In this document: piece by piece, positions 49,050 through 57,089 of the stretch | Numbering within the stretch: the stretch's first letter is position 1 | Layout of the letters: every line of letters begins with the position of its first letter | Assembly (NCBI RefSeq): GCF_000266885.1 | Contig: NC_018020.1 | Span: 3,100,001-3,164,000, forward strand | DNA length: 64,000 nt | Origin: Turneriella parva DSM 21527 | GTDB lineage: Bacteria; Spirochaetota; Leptospiria; Turneriellales; Turneriellaceae | Direction: 5' to 3' | Notes under the pieces: generated by a model | What the model saw: the letters and a program-made list of their open reading frames with translations, nothing else | What the model was told of the DNA's origin: nothing | Database searches by the model: none | Program-made: the position numbers and the translations under genes

Positions 49050-52000
49050 TCAGCTGTTCGCCAGATATTTCAGAATGGCGGATAGCTCACGAAAAAAAGC
49101 CAGTTGCGGCTGCTGCGGTATGTCGAGATTTATGCGTTTCGGGTCGGCAGTGTCGAGCTTCACGCGTTTGTCGCGCGTCAGTAGGGCAGAAACTTTGGCC
49201 ATATCGAGCCGGTGGTCAGGTGCAACAATAAAGTAGGGCATTTCTGACGGTGTCTTGAGGTCGTCGGTCTTGGGCGAAATGGCGACGCGCTCGAGTCGCA
49301 GCATGTACGCGAGTTGGCGTATTTCTTCGAGCAGCAGCATCAGCTCGACAGTTTCAGGTGGCTTGCCGTAACGATCGACAAGCGCTTCGCGTATTTCATG
49401 AAACTCATCGAGCCCCGCGGCCGCTGACAACGATTTATAAAATTCCATCTTGGCGCGGGTGTCGGCAATGTATTCGTCGGGAAAGTACCAGTCGCACGGC
49501 AGCATGATCGCGCTGGTGAAATCGTCGTTTGCCACGGCCTTGCCCTTGAGTTCGTTGACCTTATCGTTCAGCATCTGAGAATAGAGCTCGAAACCGATTT
49601 CCATGATTTCACCGCTCTGTTCTTTGCCGAGCAGGTTGCCTGCCCCGCGAATCTCCAGGTCTTTCATTGCGATGCGAAACCCAGAACCGAGGTCGTCATA
49701 TTCTGCCAGCACCTCAAGGCGGCGTTCGGCGTCGCCGCTCAGCGTATGCATCGTGGGCGAGGGATAAAAAAAGTAAGCGTACGCCTGCCGGTCTGAGCGC
49801 CCGACGCGCCCCTTCAGCTGGTAGAGCTGGCTGAGCCCGAATTCATGAGCGCCCAGCACAATGAGCGTATTGCAGTTGGGTATATCGATTCCCGATTCAA
49901 TGATCGTGGTGCTGACGAGAATATCGTACGCATGCTGGTAGAAGTCGACCATCACCTCTTCAATCGCCGTTTCGGGCATTTGCCCGTGCAGCACGGCGAT
50001 TCGGGCCTGCGGGGCCAGAGCGCGCAATCTGATCGCCTGTTCTTCAATCGTCTTTACTTTGTTGTGCAATACGTATACCTGGCCACCACGTTCGAGCTCG
50101 TGCTTAAAGGCAAGCCGCAACAGTTCTTCGTTTTCGGCGATAACATGCGTCTCTATTTTGCGCCGGTCTGCGGGCGGCGTTTCGATGATGCTCAGGTCGC
50201 GAATGCCCGAGAGTGACATGTGCAGCGTGCGCGGTATCGGGGTCGCCGTGAGCGCCAGACAGTCGAGATTCGTGCGCATCTGCCGCAGCTTCTCTTTGTG
50301 CGTCACGCCGAAGCGCTGCTCTTCGTCGATAATCATCAGCCCCAGAGACTTGTAGCGTACGTCGTCTGCAAAGAGCGCATGCGTGCCAATAATGATATCG
50401 ATCTTGCCGTCTGCCAGGCGCGCTTTGATCTCGGCAACTTCTGACGGTGACCGAAATCGGCTGATATAATCGATGCGCACGGGATAATCAGCAAAACGCT
50501 TGCTGAAGCTGCGGTAGTGCTGAAAGGCGAGAATCGTCGTCGGGCAGAGCACCGCAACCTGTTTGCCCGCCATCGCAGCCTTGAACGCTGCTCGAATCGC
50601 AACTTCGGTTTTGCCGAAGCCGACATCGCCGCAAACGAGCCTATCCATCGGTTTTTCCGATTCCATATCGGCCTTGATGGCATAGATCGTCTCGAGCTGG
50701 TGCTCGGTTTCTGTAAAGGGAAACGCCGCCTCGAAGTCGTGCTGAAAGCTACTGTCGGGGGGGAAAGCGAAACCCTTCTGGTTCACGCGGTGTGCATAAA
50801 GTTCGAGCAATTCTTCGGCGATCGAATCGACGAGGCGCTTGACGCGTGCTCGTGTCTTGGCCCACGAAGATTTCTTACCGAGGTGGTCGAGCCGGGGGTT
50901 CTCAGTCGAGCCGATGTACTTGTGTACGAGATTCAGCTGGTCGAGGGGCACGAACAGTTTGTCGTCGTCGGCAAACCGGAGTTCGATAAAGTCGCGTTCA
51001 TTGTTCTGAACGCGCATGCGCTTCAGAGCCGAGAACCGGCCGATGCCATAGTTGACGTGAACGACGTAATCGCCTTCTTTGAGGTCGGTGTAGCTGTCGA
51101 GAATGCGGCTGATGCTCTTATCGCCCGCGTATTTTTTCACTACCCGGCCAAAAATATCCGCTTCGGAGAAAACCGTGACACCATTGCCGGTGAACCCATG
51201 GGGATAAAATGCCGGTATAATTTCGGGAGCCAGAATGTCAGTGAGCGCCGCCTTGAGGCGATCGCGTTGGCTGATCGATTCGATAAAGAACCAGATATTT
51301 TCTGCATCCCCCTGCGCGAGGCGCTCTTTCAAGAGGCCCAGGCGGCCGCCGAACCGGGGGGCGTCGTGCCACTGACTGTCTTCGTCTTTGGGGTCGGTGA
51401 GTTGAATAGCATGCGCCGCGCTGAGCATGGCCTCAATACGCGCAACGTCGCCGAAAAGAATTTCGGGTGCGAGCTTTAATTTCGATTCGCTCCGTTCGAA
51501 AAGGTATTGGCGTTCGGCAGAAATTGTCTTCAGGCGCTGCCTGACACTCTCTTCATCAGCAATGAATGTTTCACCGCGCCAGAGCTCAGCGATGTTCTGT
51601 ACCTGCCTCAGCGCCGGGTAAATATCTGCGTAGCCTGCAAGATTGGTGCCACCCGAAGTAATCACCGGCGTCAGCTCGCTCTCACCCAGCGATCTATCGG
51701 CGGCAAATTTTTGCATCGCAGCGGCGAGATGCGAAACCGCCGGGCGCAGGGGTGCAATTCTCACTTCGGCGACGGGGCCGAGACTGCGCTGTGTTTCGTG
51801 TGAGAAAGACTTTATGGTTTCGATTTCATCGCCGAAGAAGTCGAGACGAACCGGTAGGTCTTCATCGGGGGCAAAAACATCGACGACGCCACCCTTGATG
51901 CAAAATTCTCCCGGGCGTTCAACAGGATTCGCGTGCCGAAACCCGCAGGACAGCAGAAACTCAGCGAAGCGACTGCGCGCAAAGTGCATACCGGGTGTGA

Positions 52001-52424
52001 GCGTACGCTCCACCTCGGCGACTTCGAGGTCTGTCGCGATCGGGTAGGTCAGACCTTCGACTGAAGCAACGATCAGGCAGGGGACTTCTGAGCGAATGAA
52101 AAGTTCGGCGCGCGTGCGGTGGTATTCTTTTTCCTGATCGGGTGCGGTGAAGCTGTAAGGTATCACGCCCCATGAGACAAGCGCGGCGGTTTCTAGCTGC
52201 GATAACGTGAGCTGGTGCAGTGAGCCCAGAGCGCGCAGCCACTCGAGCGCGGTATTGTCGTCAGGTACGATGTAGAGAGTGCGCCCGGGTTTTGGGGCCG
52301 TTGTTGCGCGTGTGAACGCGAGCATCGGCAGAATACCTGCCGGCAGATTCGCTGCTGCTTGAGTCTTTGCGGCGAGATCTTGCAGCGCCGCTGAGAGTTT
52401 TTTCGGTAACGCGCTTTCAGCCAT
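49050..52424 (-). CDS. mfd: Transcription-repair coupling factor Mfd
   Basis: About 1124 residues from ATG 52424; an in-frame start 81 codons upstream is trmL shadow sequence, and homologues begin near here. It strips stalled RNA polymerase and recruits UvrA. The N-terminal UvrB-like part lacks a helicase. The RNA-polymerase-interaction domain has KEGDYVVHVNYGIGRF. The RecG-type translocase has CGDVGFGKTEVAIRA (Walker A), IIDEEQRFGV, and the motif VI LKGRVGRSDRQAYAYFF. A C-terminal TRCF domain follows. The start overlaps the trmL end by 8 bp. Confidence 0.96.
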   Translation of the reverse strand: MAESALPKKLSAALQDLAAKTQAAANLPAGILPMLAFTRATTAPKPGRTLYIVPDDNTALEWLRALGSLHQLTLSQLETAALVSWGVIPYSFTAPDQEKEYHRTRAELFIRSEVPCLIVASVEGLTYPIATDLEVAEVERTLTPGMHFARSRFAEFLLSCGFRHANPVERPGEFCIKGGVVDVFAPDEDLPVRLDFFGDEIETIKSFSHETQRSLGPVAEVRIAPLRPAVSHLAAAMQKFAADRSLGESELTPVITSGGTNLAGYADIYPALRQVQNIAELWRGETFIADEESVRQRLKTISAERQYLFERSESKLKLAPEILFGDVARIEAMLSAAHAIQLTDPKDEDSQWHDAPRFGGRLGLLKERLAQGDAENIWFFIESISQRDRLKAALTDILAPEIIPAFYPHGFTGNGVTVFSEADIFGRVVKKYAGDKSISRILDSYTDLKEGDYVVHVNYGIGRFSALKRMRVQNNERDFIELRFADDDKLFVPLDQLNLVHKYIGSTENPRLDHLGKKSSWAKTRARVKRLVDSIAEELLELYAHRVNQKGFAFPPDSSFQHDFEAAFPFTETEHQLETIYAIKADMESEKPMDRLVCGDVGFGKTEVAIRAAFKAAMAGKQVAVLCPTTILAFQHYRSFSKRFADYPVRIDYISRFRSPSEVAEIKARLADGKIDIIIGTHALFADDVRYKSLGLMIIDEEQRFGVTHKEKLRQMRTNLDCLALTATPIPRTLHMSLSGIRDLSIIETPPADRRKIETHVIAENEELLRLAFKHELERGGQVYVLHNKVKTIEEQAIRLRALAPQARIAVLHGQMPETAIEEVMVDFYQHAYDILVSTTIIESGIDIPNCNTLIVLGAHEFGLSQLYQLKGRVGRSDRQAYAYFFYPSPTMHTLSGDAERRLEVLAEYDDLGSGFRIAMKDLEIRGAGNLLGKEQSGEIMEIGFELYSQMLNDKVNELKGKAVANDDFTSAIMLPCDWYFPDEYIADTRAKMEFYKSLSAAAGLDEFHEIREALVDRYGKPPETVELMLLLEEIRQLAYMLRLERVAISPKTDDLKTPSEMPYFIVAPDHRLDMAKVSALLTRDKRVKLDTADPKRINLDIPQQPQLAFFRELSAILKYLANS

Positions 52425-52983
52425 GGTGTCCCGACCGGTAATAGGTGCGCGGATAGCGCGTGCTATCAACCTGCAGCGCCGCGCCATAAACTTTCTGCAG
52501 CCACGCATACGCGACGACGGCGACGCTGTTCGCGAGATTGAGGCTGCGCACGGGCCCGAACATCGGTAACGCCAATGTCTGGTCGACGCGAGAGAAGAGT
52601 GCAGGGGGCAACCCCATCGTTTCATTGCCGAAAACGAGCACGTCGCCCTTTTCATAACTGAATTCAAGCGCGCTCACAGTGCCCGCTTTTGAAATACCCA
52701 AGAGTCTGCGTCCTTTGCTCGCGCGGTAAAAATCGGCGAACCGCTGGTGGTGCGTAAAACGCAGGTGCGGCCAGTGGTCGAGCCCAGCTCGGCGCACCGC
52801 AGCAGAATCAAATTCAAAACCCGCTTTGCCTGTAATAATGAGCTCGCTATTGAGTGCGACACACAGCCGCGAGACATTGCCGGTGTTCTGCGGAATCTGC
52901 GGCCGGTGCAGCACGATTGTCGGCCCGGCAATCTCAGCCGAAGTGTTCGAAAGATTTTGCCCGGTGTGTAAAGTTTCGGCCAT
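52417..52983 (-). CDS. trmL: tRNA (cytidine/uridine-34-2'-O)-methyltransferase TrmL
   Basis: A 188-residue SPOUT methyltransferase of the TrmL (YibK) type. Core motifs: LHRPQIPQNTGNVSRLCVAL, DVLVFGNETMGLP and RSLNLANSVAVVAYAWLQ, forming the trefoil-knot AdoMet site. It methylates the wobble ribose of tRNALeu in E. coli. The start ATG 52983 implies a 50-bp overlap with the thiL 3' end; no later standard start would keep the first beta strand. Its end overlaps the mfd start by 8 bp. The operon order is AGCS-psd, proC, thiL, trmL, mfd. Confidence 0.9.
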   Translation of the reverse strand: MAETLHTGQNLSNTSAEIAGPTIVLHRPQIPQNTGNVSRLCVALNSELIITGKAGFEFDSAAVRRAGLDHWPHLRFTHHQRFADFYRASKGRRLLGISKAGTVSALEFSYEKGDVLVFGNETMGLPPALFSRVDQTLALPMFGPVRSLNLANSVAVVAYAWLQKVYGAALQVDSTRYPRTYYRSGHHG

Positions 52984-53902
52984 TGAGCTTGTAAGAAACG
53001 CGCGGGCGTGCCTTATGGATGTATTTTACCTTGCCGATGAGGCGAAAAGCGGGTGAGGATTCAGCACTTACTTTGCCGCCGCCTGAGACGAGGCCGAAGA
53101 CTGCGAGATCTTCGGCGGCACTGAGCACCTGTAGGGCATTCCCTTCGCTGATTTTGCCGACGCTTTCGGCTGTCTGTACCTGGTCCAGGTCAATTTCAAG
53201 CTCGACAGAATTTGCTTCGGCCAGCAGGCGCAGCGTCTTTTCGACCGAGTCGCTTTGGTCGATAGCCGCAATGGGCCTCAATCCCTTGGGGTATGCGTGC
53301 AAGAACGTGGGTCGCTTGAAATACCTCGCGTCCCTCGCGCGCAGGTTTTTACTTTTCGAAAGAGCCGTGCGCGCCGTGTCGCTACCGCCGACGCAGCCGA
53401 TCTGAAAGACAGAATCACCGGCTTTCAGAGAAGCAGCCTGGCGCGCGATAAAGCGCCCCGAACTGCCGAAAAAGCTTAAAGTGAAATGGTCATGCAAAGA
53501 CCGCCCAGTGTCTCCCCCGATGAGGGTAATTGCGAAGCGGGTGAACAGGGCATCGAGCTCGCTCAAGAATGGCTTCACGAACCGGGTTGCCGCGTGTTCG
53601 GCGCGCAGGCCGAAATTCAGCAACGCAAATTCAGGTCTGATGCCTTTGACGGCGAAATCAGAAAAGTTGCGGGCGAAGAGCTTGTAGGCAATGTCTCGCG
53701 GTGAAAGCCAGGCATCGAGGTAGTGTATGCCTTCAACCAGACTGTCAGTAGCGACGTAAAGTTTACCTTGAGAGTGCAGCACCCCAATGTCGTCGGCGCG
53801 CAGCAAGTTTTGCTGCGAGCACTTCAGCCGCCCAAGCGCAGCAATAATCTGCTCTTCGCTGAGGCGCCTTTTATGTCTGTTCGCTTTGCTATACGCCGGC
53901 AC
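52934..53902 (-). CDS. thiL: Thiamine-monophosphate kinase
   Basis: A 322-residue AIR-synthase-fold enzyme that phosphorylates thiamine monophosphate to the diphosphate. Visible motifs are RADDIGVL (usual GDDAA replaced by ADDIG), the substrate stretch VATDSLVEGIHYLDAWLSPRDIAYKLFARNFSDFAVKGIRP, and IGGDTGRS (about 124-131). The C-terminal half is more divergent. These features favour ThiL over PurM or HypE. It begins 11 bp after proC and its end overlaps trmL by 50 bp. No other thiamine genes are in view. Confidence 0.83.
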   Translation of the reverse strand: MPAYSKANRHKRRLSEEQIIAALGRLKCSQQNLLRADDIGVLHSQGKLYVATDSLVEGIHYLDAWLSPRDIAYKLFARNFSDFAVKGIRPEFALLNFGLRAEHAATRFVKPFLSELDALFTRFAITLIGGDTGRSLHDHFTLSFFGSSGRFIARQAASLKAGDSVFQIGCVGGSDTARTALSKSKNLRARDARYFKRPTFLHAYPKGLRPIAAIDQSDSVEKTLRLLAEANSVELEIDLDQVQTAESVGKISEGNALQVLSAAEDLAVFGLVSGGGKVSAESSPAFRLIGKVKYIHKARPRVSYKLNGRNFTHRAKSFEHFG

Positions 53903-53913
53903 GGCCCGAGGTC

Positions 53914-54726
53914 TTAGTCGCCGGTGCCCGGCGGTAATTTTGCCTCTGCGGCGAGCTCTACGGAGCGCCGGGTGGCCGCGGTAACGGCTTCCATCACTGC
54001 ATTCGGGAAACCATGCCGGTGCAGCGATTTGAGCGCGACTGCTGTCGTGCCACCTGGAGAAGTTACATCGTGAATCAGGTTCTGCGGCGCCTCATGCGAT
54101 TGCCGTGCGAGCTCAGCAGAGCCCAATACTGTCTGCAGCGCCAGCGCGCGGCTGTCGGCGCGGCTTAAACCGAGCAGCACACCCGCGTCTTCGAGGTTCT
54201 GCAAGAAAAGGTAAACATATGCGGGGCCTGAACCTGAAAGGCCTGTCACCGCATGCAGAAGCTTTTCTTGCTCGAGGTAGATAGCGGTGCCGGTGTTCTC
54301 AAAAATTTCGCGCGCGAGCGCAAGGTCTTCACCTGCGCAGAAACGGTTGCCGGTAAATGCCGTAATGCCGCGGCGAATGAGTAACGGAGTATTGGGCATT
54401 GCGCGCACGGTAGGCCCATTCTCACCGCGGGCGGCGTCGATTGTCTTCAGCGCAACCCCGGCTGCGATGCTGATCACGAGGCGGTGGTCTGTGACGGCCG
54501 TGGCTACCTCAGCAACCTGCGCAGGCTTCGTGGCGATAATGAGGGTTTCTGTTTTTTCAACCAGTGCCTCGAGGCTCTCTGCCAGCGAGATCTTCTTCAG
54601 CAGTGATGGCCGCAGCGCTGAAGCAGCTTCGTTACTCTTCTCATAGCCTGAGATTTCGTATTTTGCCGAAAGCGCCTGCGCGAGCGCAGAACCCATTTTT
54701 CCGAGACCGACGATTCCGATTTTCAT
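53914..54726 (-). CDS. proC: Pyrroline-5-carboxylate reductase
   Basis: A 270-residue proline-synthesis enzyme reducing pyrroline-5-carboxylate with NAD(P)H. It has the Rossmann start IGIVGLGKMGSALAQALSA, RAMPNTPLLIRRGITAF, and the C-terminal dimer signature GLSGSGPAYVYLFLQNLEDAG with DVTSPGGTTAVALKSL. The start codon overlaps the AGCS-Psd stop (ATGA at 54723-54726), so it is translationally coupled to that fusion. Confidence 0.96.
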   Translation of the reverse strand: MKIGIVGLGKMGSALAQALSAKYEISGYEKSNEAASALRPSLLKKISLAESLEALVEKTETLIIATKPAQVAEVATAVTDHRLVISIAAGVALKTIDAARGENGPTVRAMPNTPLLIRRGITAFTGNRFCAGEDLALAREIFENTGTAIYLEQEKLLHAVTGLSGSGPAYVYLFLQNLEDAGVLLGLSRADSRALALQTVLGSAELARQSHEAPQNLIHDVTSPGGTTAVALKSLHRHGFPNAVMEAVTAATRRSVELAAEAKLPPGTGD

Positions 54727-57089
54727 TTGCGACCTGCCGATTTTCTGTTGGTTTTTGAGGTGTTAGCCTGTTTCGCCTGTTTCGCGGGCGCATTCTTGCC
54801 CGTGAAGAGAGCGATAGGCTGACCGAAGAGCAATTTCTGCTTCTCTTCAAAATCGAGCAGGTCAACGGAGTCGCGCTCAAAAAGCAGCATCACCGTTGAA
54901 CCCATTTCAAACCGGCCGAGTTCAGCGCCTTTGCGAATATAAATCTCTTCGTCGTACATGTGCTCTTTCGCGAGGCGAATCCAGCGGTTGGTAGCGATAT
55001 TGGGGTCATAGGTCACGCGAATTTTGCCAACCGACGTGGCGCCGACTTTGATCACCGCCACGAGCCCATGGTCGCTTTGAATATACGTGATGAGGCGTTC
55101 GTTCTTTGAGAAAAGCTGATTGATCGAATTCACCGCCAGGTTATTGACGGGAAAAAGTTTTCCCGGCTGGTAATAATAGCCCAGAATTCGGCCCTCAACC
55201 GGCGAATGGATGCGGTGGTAGTCTTGCGGTGAAAGGTAGATCGTCATGTAATGGCCGCCGAGAAACTGCTTGTAGAAGCGGTTGTTGCCCAAGAGGTTCT
55301 GCAGCGAAGATTCCATGCCCTTTGACTGCAAAAGCTGGCCTTTTTCGAGCGAGCCCGCGATGAGCAGCCTGCCATCTACTGGCGAAATGATGACGCTCTC
55401 TTTCTGGTCGATAAGGCGTGAGCCGTTCTTGAGGGCCCGCGTGAAGAATTTGTTCAGCGATTCGTAATCAGAAATTTCGAGCGCCGCCTCTTGAATATTA
55501 ATTTTGTAGATGCGCGCAAACGCGAGCACGATCGGTGTCATCATAAAGCGCGGCAGCCTCAGGCCTGCCAGAAATCCGTTGAGCTTCGACACCATATTCT
55601 TTGGCAGCAGCGTCAGCAGCAGAACATAAAACCGCACCGCCAAATCATGCTTATGCGGAAACTGCGAGAAGTATTCGAGTGCAAGACGCCGCACCTCGGC
55701 AAGTTTACTCAGCAGCGCCGTCAGATATATGACGGCAAGCAGCGAAAACAGCACCGAAGAGATCATCACCTTGTCGCCGAGGTTCAAGAACTGCTGCGAC
55801 AGAGCGAACGCCAGTACGAAGACGATGCGCGCAGGCCAGATGAGCATGCGGGCGCCGAGCGAAATCAGCAGGCGGTCGAGAATGATAATCCAGACTGCCG
55901 ACGCAATTGCGCCGAGCGCAAATGCTGAAAGCGCGATGATGAGAAAACCGCCGCGGCCGAGTGAACCTGAAAAAATATGCGCGAGTGAAAATTGCACCTG
56001 GCGAATGATTTCGCTCGCGGCAGCCGGGGCAGGGGCGAGCAGGGCTTTGACGCCACCCAGGGCGGCGTCGGCACCTTTCACTTCGGGTAATCCCGTAGCA
56101 TAGGCGAGGCACAGCAGCGGTATAAAAATCGTCGTATAAAAGAGCGCCGTCGACATCGACACGAGACCCTGCTTCACCGCGTAATCATTCACCGACGCGG
56201 CGGTGACCGAACCAGAAATGCCGGTGGCCTCTTCGGGGGCGACAATGCCGGCAAACGCGGCACACTTAAAGACGAGCAGCGAGGTGACGATGCCTGCGGT
56301 CAGACTCTTGAAGTTCAGCGCCTGCGAAAATGCCTGCGACATGATGCCCGACGCTTTTTGCGAATTCTGCGCGATGATATAGATGGCGAGTATAATTAAG
56401 AGGCTGGTGACAACAGGCGAAACGACTGCAGCAACCTTGCCGACGCGCTTTAGACTGCCGACTGCCATGATGAGACCCGTGATGACAATCAGCGTCGGCG
56501 CCCATCTGTTCGAAAAAATATTCTCGCCGAGTTTCATAGGTGCGGTCGTCTTTTCAGGGTTCGCATAGAATTGCTGCCACAGGTCGGCCTGCGCCAGTGC
56601 GCCCCAGAGAAGCACGACTGCGACTGCGAGCAGTGCATAGGCCTTACCGCCGTTCACGCCCCAAAAAGTTGTTCTGATGATATCGCGCGCGCCGCCGAGC
56701 CAGACGTAGTCGGTCTTTTCGCGGTAGCTGACCGCGAGCGTGCCGGTTGCGAAGCGCAGCGAGGCGAGCAAAATGCCAAAAAGCGCGACCCAGACGAGCG
56801 AAGCCGCACCGCCCCAGAGTACAATCACCGGAATTCCCAACAGAATGGCGGCATTTGCCTGAATGCTGCCCGCGAGAAACATCGCCCTGCGGTTATTGAT
56901 TTCGCCCGCGCGCTGTGCCTTCGTGAGGGTCGTGCCTTCGTCTTCTTTGCCGAGCCCGGCAAGCGCAATGCGAAAGCCGTAAATGACATAGCGCAGCGGC
57001 AAAAACCGCAAATACAGCGTGTATGCGGCAGAGGTGAAGATAAGCAGAATGAGCACCGCAAGCGAGAGATAGGCTTCAAGGCTGACCAT
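54723..57089 (-). CDS. AGCS-family transporter fused to phosphatidylserine decarboxylase
   Basis: A 788-residue single frame with two parts. Residues 1-470 are a multi-pass membrane domain (about ten helices) related to Na+:alanine/glycine symporters (AGCS): the FLAGSIQANAAILLG and LAVSYREKTDYVWLGGARDI stretches align in place and order, and APEEATGISGSVTAAS takes the place of the family's NEAGLGSAP signature. Residues 485-765 are a full proenzyme-type Psd: VDG with Asp572, DYHRIH with His625 and His628, and the EMGST self-cleavage site at 728-732 (cut expected between Gly730 and Ser731 to give the pyruvoyl group). The basic tail (766-788) is lineage-specific. It starts the proC-thiL-trmL-mfd operon. 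The Psd part is sure; the transport activity of the other part is uncertain. Confidence 0.85.
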   Translation of the reverse strand: MVSLEAYLSLAVLILLIFTSAAYTLYLRFLPLRYVIYGFRIALAGLGKEDEGTTLTKAQRAGEINNRRAMFLAGSIQANAAILLGIPVIVLWGGAASLVWVALFGILLASLRFATGTLAVSYREKTDYVWLGGARDIIRTTFWGVNGGKAYALLAVAVVLLWGALAQADLWQQFYANPEKTTAPMKLGENIFSNRWAPTLIVITGLIMAVGSLKRVGKVAAVVSPVVTSLLIILAIYIIAQNSQKASGIMSQAFSQALNFKSLTAGIVTSLLVFKCAAFAGIVAPEEATGISGSVTAASVNDYAVKQGLVSMSTALFYTTIFIPLLCLAYATGLPEVKGADAALGGVKALLAPAPAAASEIIRQVQFSLAHIFSGSLGRGGFLIIALSAFALGAIASAVWIIILDRLLISLGARMLIWPARIVFVLAFALSQQFLNLGDKVMISSVLFSLLAVIYLTALLSKLAEVRRLALEYFSQFPHKHDLAVRFYVLLLTLLPKNMVSKLNGFLAGLRLPRFMMTPIVLAFARIYKINIQEAALEISDYESLNKFFTRALKNGSRLIDQKESVIISPVDGRLLIAGSLEKGQLLQSKGMESSLQNLLGNNRFYKQFLGGHYMTIYLSPQDYHRIHSPVEGRILGYYYQPGKLFPVNNLAVNSINQLFSKNERLITYIQSDHGLVAVIKVGATSVGKIRVTYDPNIATNRWIRLAKEHMYDEEIYIRKGAELGRFEMGSTVMLLFERDSVDLLDFEEKQKLLFGQPIALFTGKNAPAKQAKQANTSKTNRKSAGRK

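Follow-up and report, generated by a model that had tools for sequence, protein, structure and literature searches.

The only phosphatidylserine decarboxylase (Psd) of Turneriella parva DSM 21527 is encoded within a single 788-codon frame, in which a membrane domain of the AGCS family (PF01235) precedes a complete type I Psd. Both halves belong to known families; what is unusual is the joining of a transporter to a central phospholipid enzyme across almost an entire bacterial class, the Leptospiria. No published description of a Psd-AGCS fusion was found in the open-licence literature, and the architecture may be listed automatically in domain-architecture databases. The fused gene (AGCS-like membrane domain plus Psd proenzyme, 788 aa) lies on the minus strand at positions 54723..57089 of the window, that is, the whole 64,000-nucleotide stretch of DNA that was analysed, and runs from an ATG at 57089 to 54723 without internal stop codons. 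The T. parva genome totals 4,409,302 bases, 4,384,015 of them in the first of its two contigs, in agreement with its published description (PMC3746428). It yields one Psd match and one AGCS match in total, and both correspond to the fusion.

The AGCS (Na+:alanine symporter)-like domain covers residues 1-473 (55671..57089, minus strand). PF01235 matches residues 57-473 with 85 bits against the Pfam cut-off of 24, so that the homology spans the whole domain, whereas the subfamily-level TIGR00835 cut-off of 272.65 is not reached (65 bits). The type I Psd domain, including its N-terminal helices, occupies residues 486-763 (54801..55634, minus strand) and matches E. coli PSD; it is recognized by PF02666 over residues 545-760 (196 bits, Pfam cut-off 22) and by TIGR00163 (210 bits, cut-off 111.75). 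A profile built from the fused proteins and compared with solved structures retrieved AgcS (6cse) at an E value of 7e-88 and E. coli PSD (6l06) at 2e-57. In an AlphaFold2 model of the T. parva protein (mean pLDDT 75.7; pTM 0.64, at which the relative placement of the two halves is not fixed), the membrane half is matched by Foldseek to AgcS 6cse with a TM-score of 0.80-0.83 by target (E 4.7e-13), and the enzyme half matches E. coli PSD with a TM-score of 0.77-0.81 by target and 35% identity in the structural alignment. The first-pass annotation of an AGCS-derived N-terminal half followed by a complete Psd is thus borne out by profiles and folds alike; the ten helices that it assigned to the membrane half are better given as 10-11 transmembrane (TM) segments, the multi-span AGCS-like character being confirmed. 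The CstA family (PF02554) was also considered for the membrane domain and ruled out, as it has no match anywhere in the T. parva genome.

The residues expected of a self-processing decarboxylase are all in place. D572 (55374..55376, minus strand) and H628 (55206..55208, minus strand) are the equivalents of E. coli Psd D90 and H147, respectively, H625 aligns with H144, and all three are invariant among 31 fused proteins. The same holds for EMGST, residues 728-732 (54894..54908, minus strand), which contains the predicted self-cleavage site G730/S731. This pair maps onto G253-S254 of E. coli PSD, S254 being placed via the adjacent GST motif, and G730-S731-T732 is unchanged throughout the 31 proteins. 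The PF02666 score is likewise steady across the fused lineages, at 185-216 bits for complete genes. The Psd half would accordingly be an ordinary type I enzyme that cleaves itself between Gly730 and Ser731, forms its pyruvoyl group from S731 and converts phosphatidylserine to phosphatidylethanolamine at the cytoplasmic face of the inner membrane. The proposed activity at this face is based on the intact residues, on the charge pattern of the loops and on the presence of a single Psd copy with pssA located elsewhere.

The first loop and the segment following TM11 of the membrane domain are rich in lysine and arginine, which suggests that the C-terminus of the membrane domain, and with it the Psd domain, is cytoplasmic. 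After self-cleavage, the AGCS part would remain on the beta chain and hold Psd integrally in the membrane. In T. parva, both transport signatures are gone: NAAI (residues 79-82; 56844..56855, minus strand) stands where TM1 of AgcS has GTGN (6cse chain residues 77-80), and APEEATGIS (residues 284-292; 56214..56240, minus strand) replaces the TM6 motif SNEAGLGSA, as had been noticed at first pass. The domain therefore lacks both signature segments, GxGN in TM1 and SNE[AS]GxGS in TM6. Given that these residues are lost in Turneriella and in the Leptospirales, the AGCS part of these lineages is most likely a pseudo-transporter that provides a structural platform, its former amino-acid site possibly being re-purposed. 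We moderately favour the view that in Turneriella it is a symporter-derived membrane platform for Psd, although E. coli Psd functions without any such membrane domain, so that an anchor is not required.

To assess how widespread the fusion is, we analysed 48 genomes of the class, 45 of which encode a Psd; the genus Leptospira was not among the genome matches. Fusions are present in 41 of the 45, distributed over four families and including the type strain of Leptonema illini (G029; genome PMC3746420) and two genomes (G031 and G003) in which the gene ends at a contig edge. The AGCS part is detected by a class profile in 40 of the 41, the exception being G030, which nevertheless keeps 12 hydrophobic segments. 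Psd stands alone in three genomes (G014, G016 and G027), with no AGCS-like frame immediately upstream. In the remaining one, the metagenome-assembled genome (MAG) G036 (L136, 4709-6938), an AGCS part of 313 aa and a Psd part of 444 aa lie in overlapping frames, reflecting either a frameshift in the MAG or a truly split gene. By contrast, none of 66 Psd-bearing Spirochaetota genomes sampled from other classes contains an AGCS-Psd frame. Beyond what the single sequence could show at first pass, the architecture is nearly fixed within the Leptospiria.

The broken gene of G036 is the one observation that would fit a merger of two adjacent genes through frameshift, assembly or annotation error, an explanation that we consider hardly credible. 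The common frame recurs in about 40 independent assemblies, including those of the T. parva and L. illini type strains, with protein identity down to about 30%; recovery of the same single frame from independent assemblies, which upholds the uninterrupted 788-codon reading, excludes a frameshift or a chimera.

Several other records deserve mention. Long Psd frames elsewhere in the Spirochaetota (G054, 618 aa; G085, 478; G110, 431; G131, 436; G246, 426) and the loci L056, L084 and L089 were examined as further fusions and rejected, as the AGCS match is absent; their extra length comes from an extended reading frame or a short addition at the N-terminus. Among the plasmid records, nothing spans most of the fusion, and the matches listed are of Psd length only. 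A second, partial Psd fragment beside an existing fusion (G022:C148:3-578) represents a duplicate, a strain mixture or contamination. A record titled Caldithrix sp. (L039) and the SulCav 'Turneriella parva' MAG (L040) carry near-identical fusions, and the Caldithrix title is probably misassigned. The Psd of L062, labelled Comamonas sp. KCTC 72670, is nested within Myxococcus sequences, pointing to a label or contamination problem.

While the enzyme half is nearly constant, the membrane half ranges from intact to unrecognizable. In genera g3-g6 of the Turneriellales family f1 and in family f4, PF01235 scores on the fused domain are 352-437 bits, not far from the 400-475 bits typical of most free-standing AGCS carriers of the same class. 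The scores drop to 160-194 bits in f5 and to 87-119 bits for Turneriella and g2, while those of f6 extend from 124 bits down to undetected, such that Turneriella and all Leptospirales remain at or below 194 bits. The motifs follow the same course. GTGN and SNEAGLGS are intact in six fusions (L030, L031, L033, L037, L039 and L040), L032 has GVGS and SSEAGLGS, and in every Turneriella, f5 and f6 fusion examined by alignment both motifs are replaced, whereas the 12 free-standing AGCS proteins used for comparison all keep GxGN and SNE[AS]GxGS. The N-terminal domain of some f6 fusions is shortened or barely AGCS-like, yet retains 7-12 hydrophobic segments. The f5 fusions carry [ST]ExGxGKSAG as their TM6 motif, with lysine in place of the AgcS serine; the corresponding [ST]ExGxGK, with lysine at the same position, is found in Leptospirales (L034, L035, L041, L109, L123 and several f6 loci), where it might signify a changed ion coupling or ligand.

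The complete transporter motifs in some relatives indicate that the ancestral fusion partner was probably a working symporter, and the fusions that retain them likely still carry out amino-acid symport. The earlier suggestion that the fold may have become an anchor, a lipid-handling domain or a regulator fits Turneriella. The main alternative is that the AGCS domain is a carrier still transporting something, be it another amino acid, a lipid head-group compound or the lipid as such, with altered substrate and ion coupling, and that Psd was fused to it for metabolic coupling; the intact-motif Turneriellales proteins would then be present-day Na+/amino-acid symporters. Consistent with such a role, the intact-lineage domains score like free-standing carriers and retain GTGN and SNEAGLGS, the fused domain is usually the sole AGCS protein of these genomes, and the TM1 and TM6 residues of Turneriella and f5, although different from those of AgcS, are conserved within each lineage. 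Nevertheless, the large loss of family score and the very long branches in most lineages, as well as the f6 domains that are barely or not recognizable as AGCS, speak against continued transport, and we regard this alternative as possible but rather unlikely.

Divergence of the membrane half is not tantamount to decay. On the Turneriella stem branch, the AGCS part accumulated 2.5-2.9 changes per site compared to about 0.26 for Psd, a roughly 10-fold difference. The omega values of 0.05-0.14 for the AGCS part and 0.016-0.04 for Psd, albeit rough given that synonymous sites are near saturation, imply that purifying selection on the Turneriella domain continues. Furthermore, the former TM1 and TM6/7 are the most conserved stretches of the membrane domain in Turneriella and g2, with 44 of 80 positions invariant versus 78 of 341 elsewhere in the domain (Fisher p 4e-8, for windows picked after inspection). 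This pattern can mean either a re-purposed site or merely a structural core. A pure anchor would not need it, although a structural core could account for the conservation.

The same pattern, with the former binding segments most conserved where the transport motifs are lost, is compatible with a regulatory sensor, in which the AGCS fold would bind an amino acid or a lipid without transport and tune Psd in a transceptor-like manner. Nearly all members keep the fusion, but the stand-alone Psd of three genomes speaks against it, and we deem a sensor quite improbable. A further proposal is that the fused domain, once an amino-acid carrier, takes part in phospholipid synthesis across the Leptospiria, where its central site would bind or move a phosphatidylserine/ethanolamine pathway compound and the domain would control or feed Psd; this is speculative, and we consider it unlikely. 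On balance, the membrane platform remains the role that we infer for the AGCS part of Turneriella.

A proC-like gene (53914..54726, minus strand; by inspection, a pyrroline-5-carboxylate reductase) begins with a 4-base overlap with the end of psd, and the psd-proC order is kept in the Turneriellales, where the proC-like gene is the conserved neighbour. The idea that the fusion organizes Psd with PssA finds no support in this arrangement, as pssA, although present in T. parva, is located about 650 kb from the psd fusion. The lack of a linked pssA in T. parva, with proC as the only linked amino-acid gene, also counts against a carrier coupled to Psd metabolism. Positions 49050-54726 of the window, after psd, encode proC, ThiL-like, tRNA methyltransferase-like and mfd genes (names by inspection), in an order conserved in relatives of Turneriella; conservation of the ThiL-like gene is about 45% in most relatives, well below the 55-81% of its neighbours.

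To gain insight into the origin of the fusion, we constructed phylogenies of both halves. In the maximum-likelihood tree, 25 fused AGCS domains are separated by one branch (support 99/100) from 40 free-standing AGCS proteins, namely, AgcS, E. coli YaaJ and Spirochaetota carriers, with other phyla represented by two proteins only. The simplest reading is that the fusion arose once, whereby a Na+:alanine/glycine-type symporter would have been joined to the N-terminus of the sole Psd in the leptospirial ancestor or close to it. The tree of the Psd half groups most of the fused proteins (open fork, 84/59), but those of G030 and G040 (L142 and L141) fall on the opposite side with equally weak support, so that this tree alone is not decisive on the origin. 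The stand-alone Psd of G016 is placed outside, on a long branch; its gene adjoins proC and a ThiL-like gene, as the T. parva fusion does, suggesting that family f3 either lost the AGCS half or never acquired it.

The Leptospiria thus present a natural series, from a transporter-like to a nearly unrecognizable membrane domain, in which the enzyme is constant, making the contribution of a transporter fold to an enzyme directly testable. Given that Leptospira belongs to this class, the protein would be relevant to Leptospira membrane biology if the genomes of that genus encode it.

Comparison with known systems shows what is shared and what differs. The membrane half of the T. parva protein has the fold of, and full-domain homology with, AGCS symporters (PF01235, TIGR00835), such as AgcS (6cse) and E. 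coli YaaJ, a family that also includes GutA of C. jejuni (PMC12795558); it differs from them by the C-terminal Psd and by the replaced GTGN of TM1 and SNEAGLGS of TM6. With E. coli Psd (PF02666, TIGR00163; 6l06, 7cnw-7cnz), the fusion shares the whole enzyme domain, the N-terminal helices, the Asp/His residues and the G-S-T cleavage site, the self-cleavage motif being EMGST rather than KLGST, but E. coli Psd lacks a multi-span domain, whereas the T. parva beta chain carries about 470 additional residues with 10-11 TM segments. Lipid enzymes of the MprF type also combine a lipid-modifying enzyme and a multi-span membrane domain in one chain, albeit with other folds and for another reaction.
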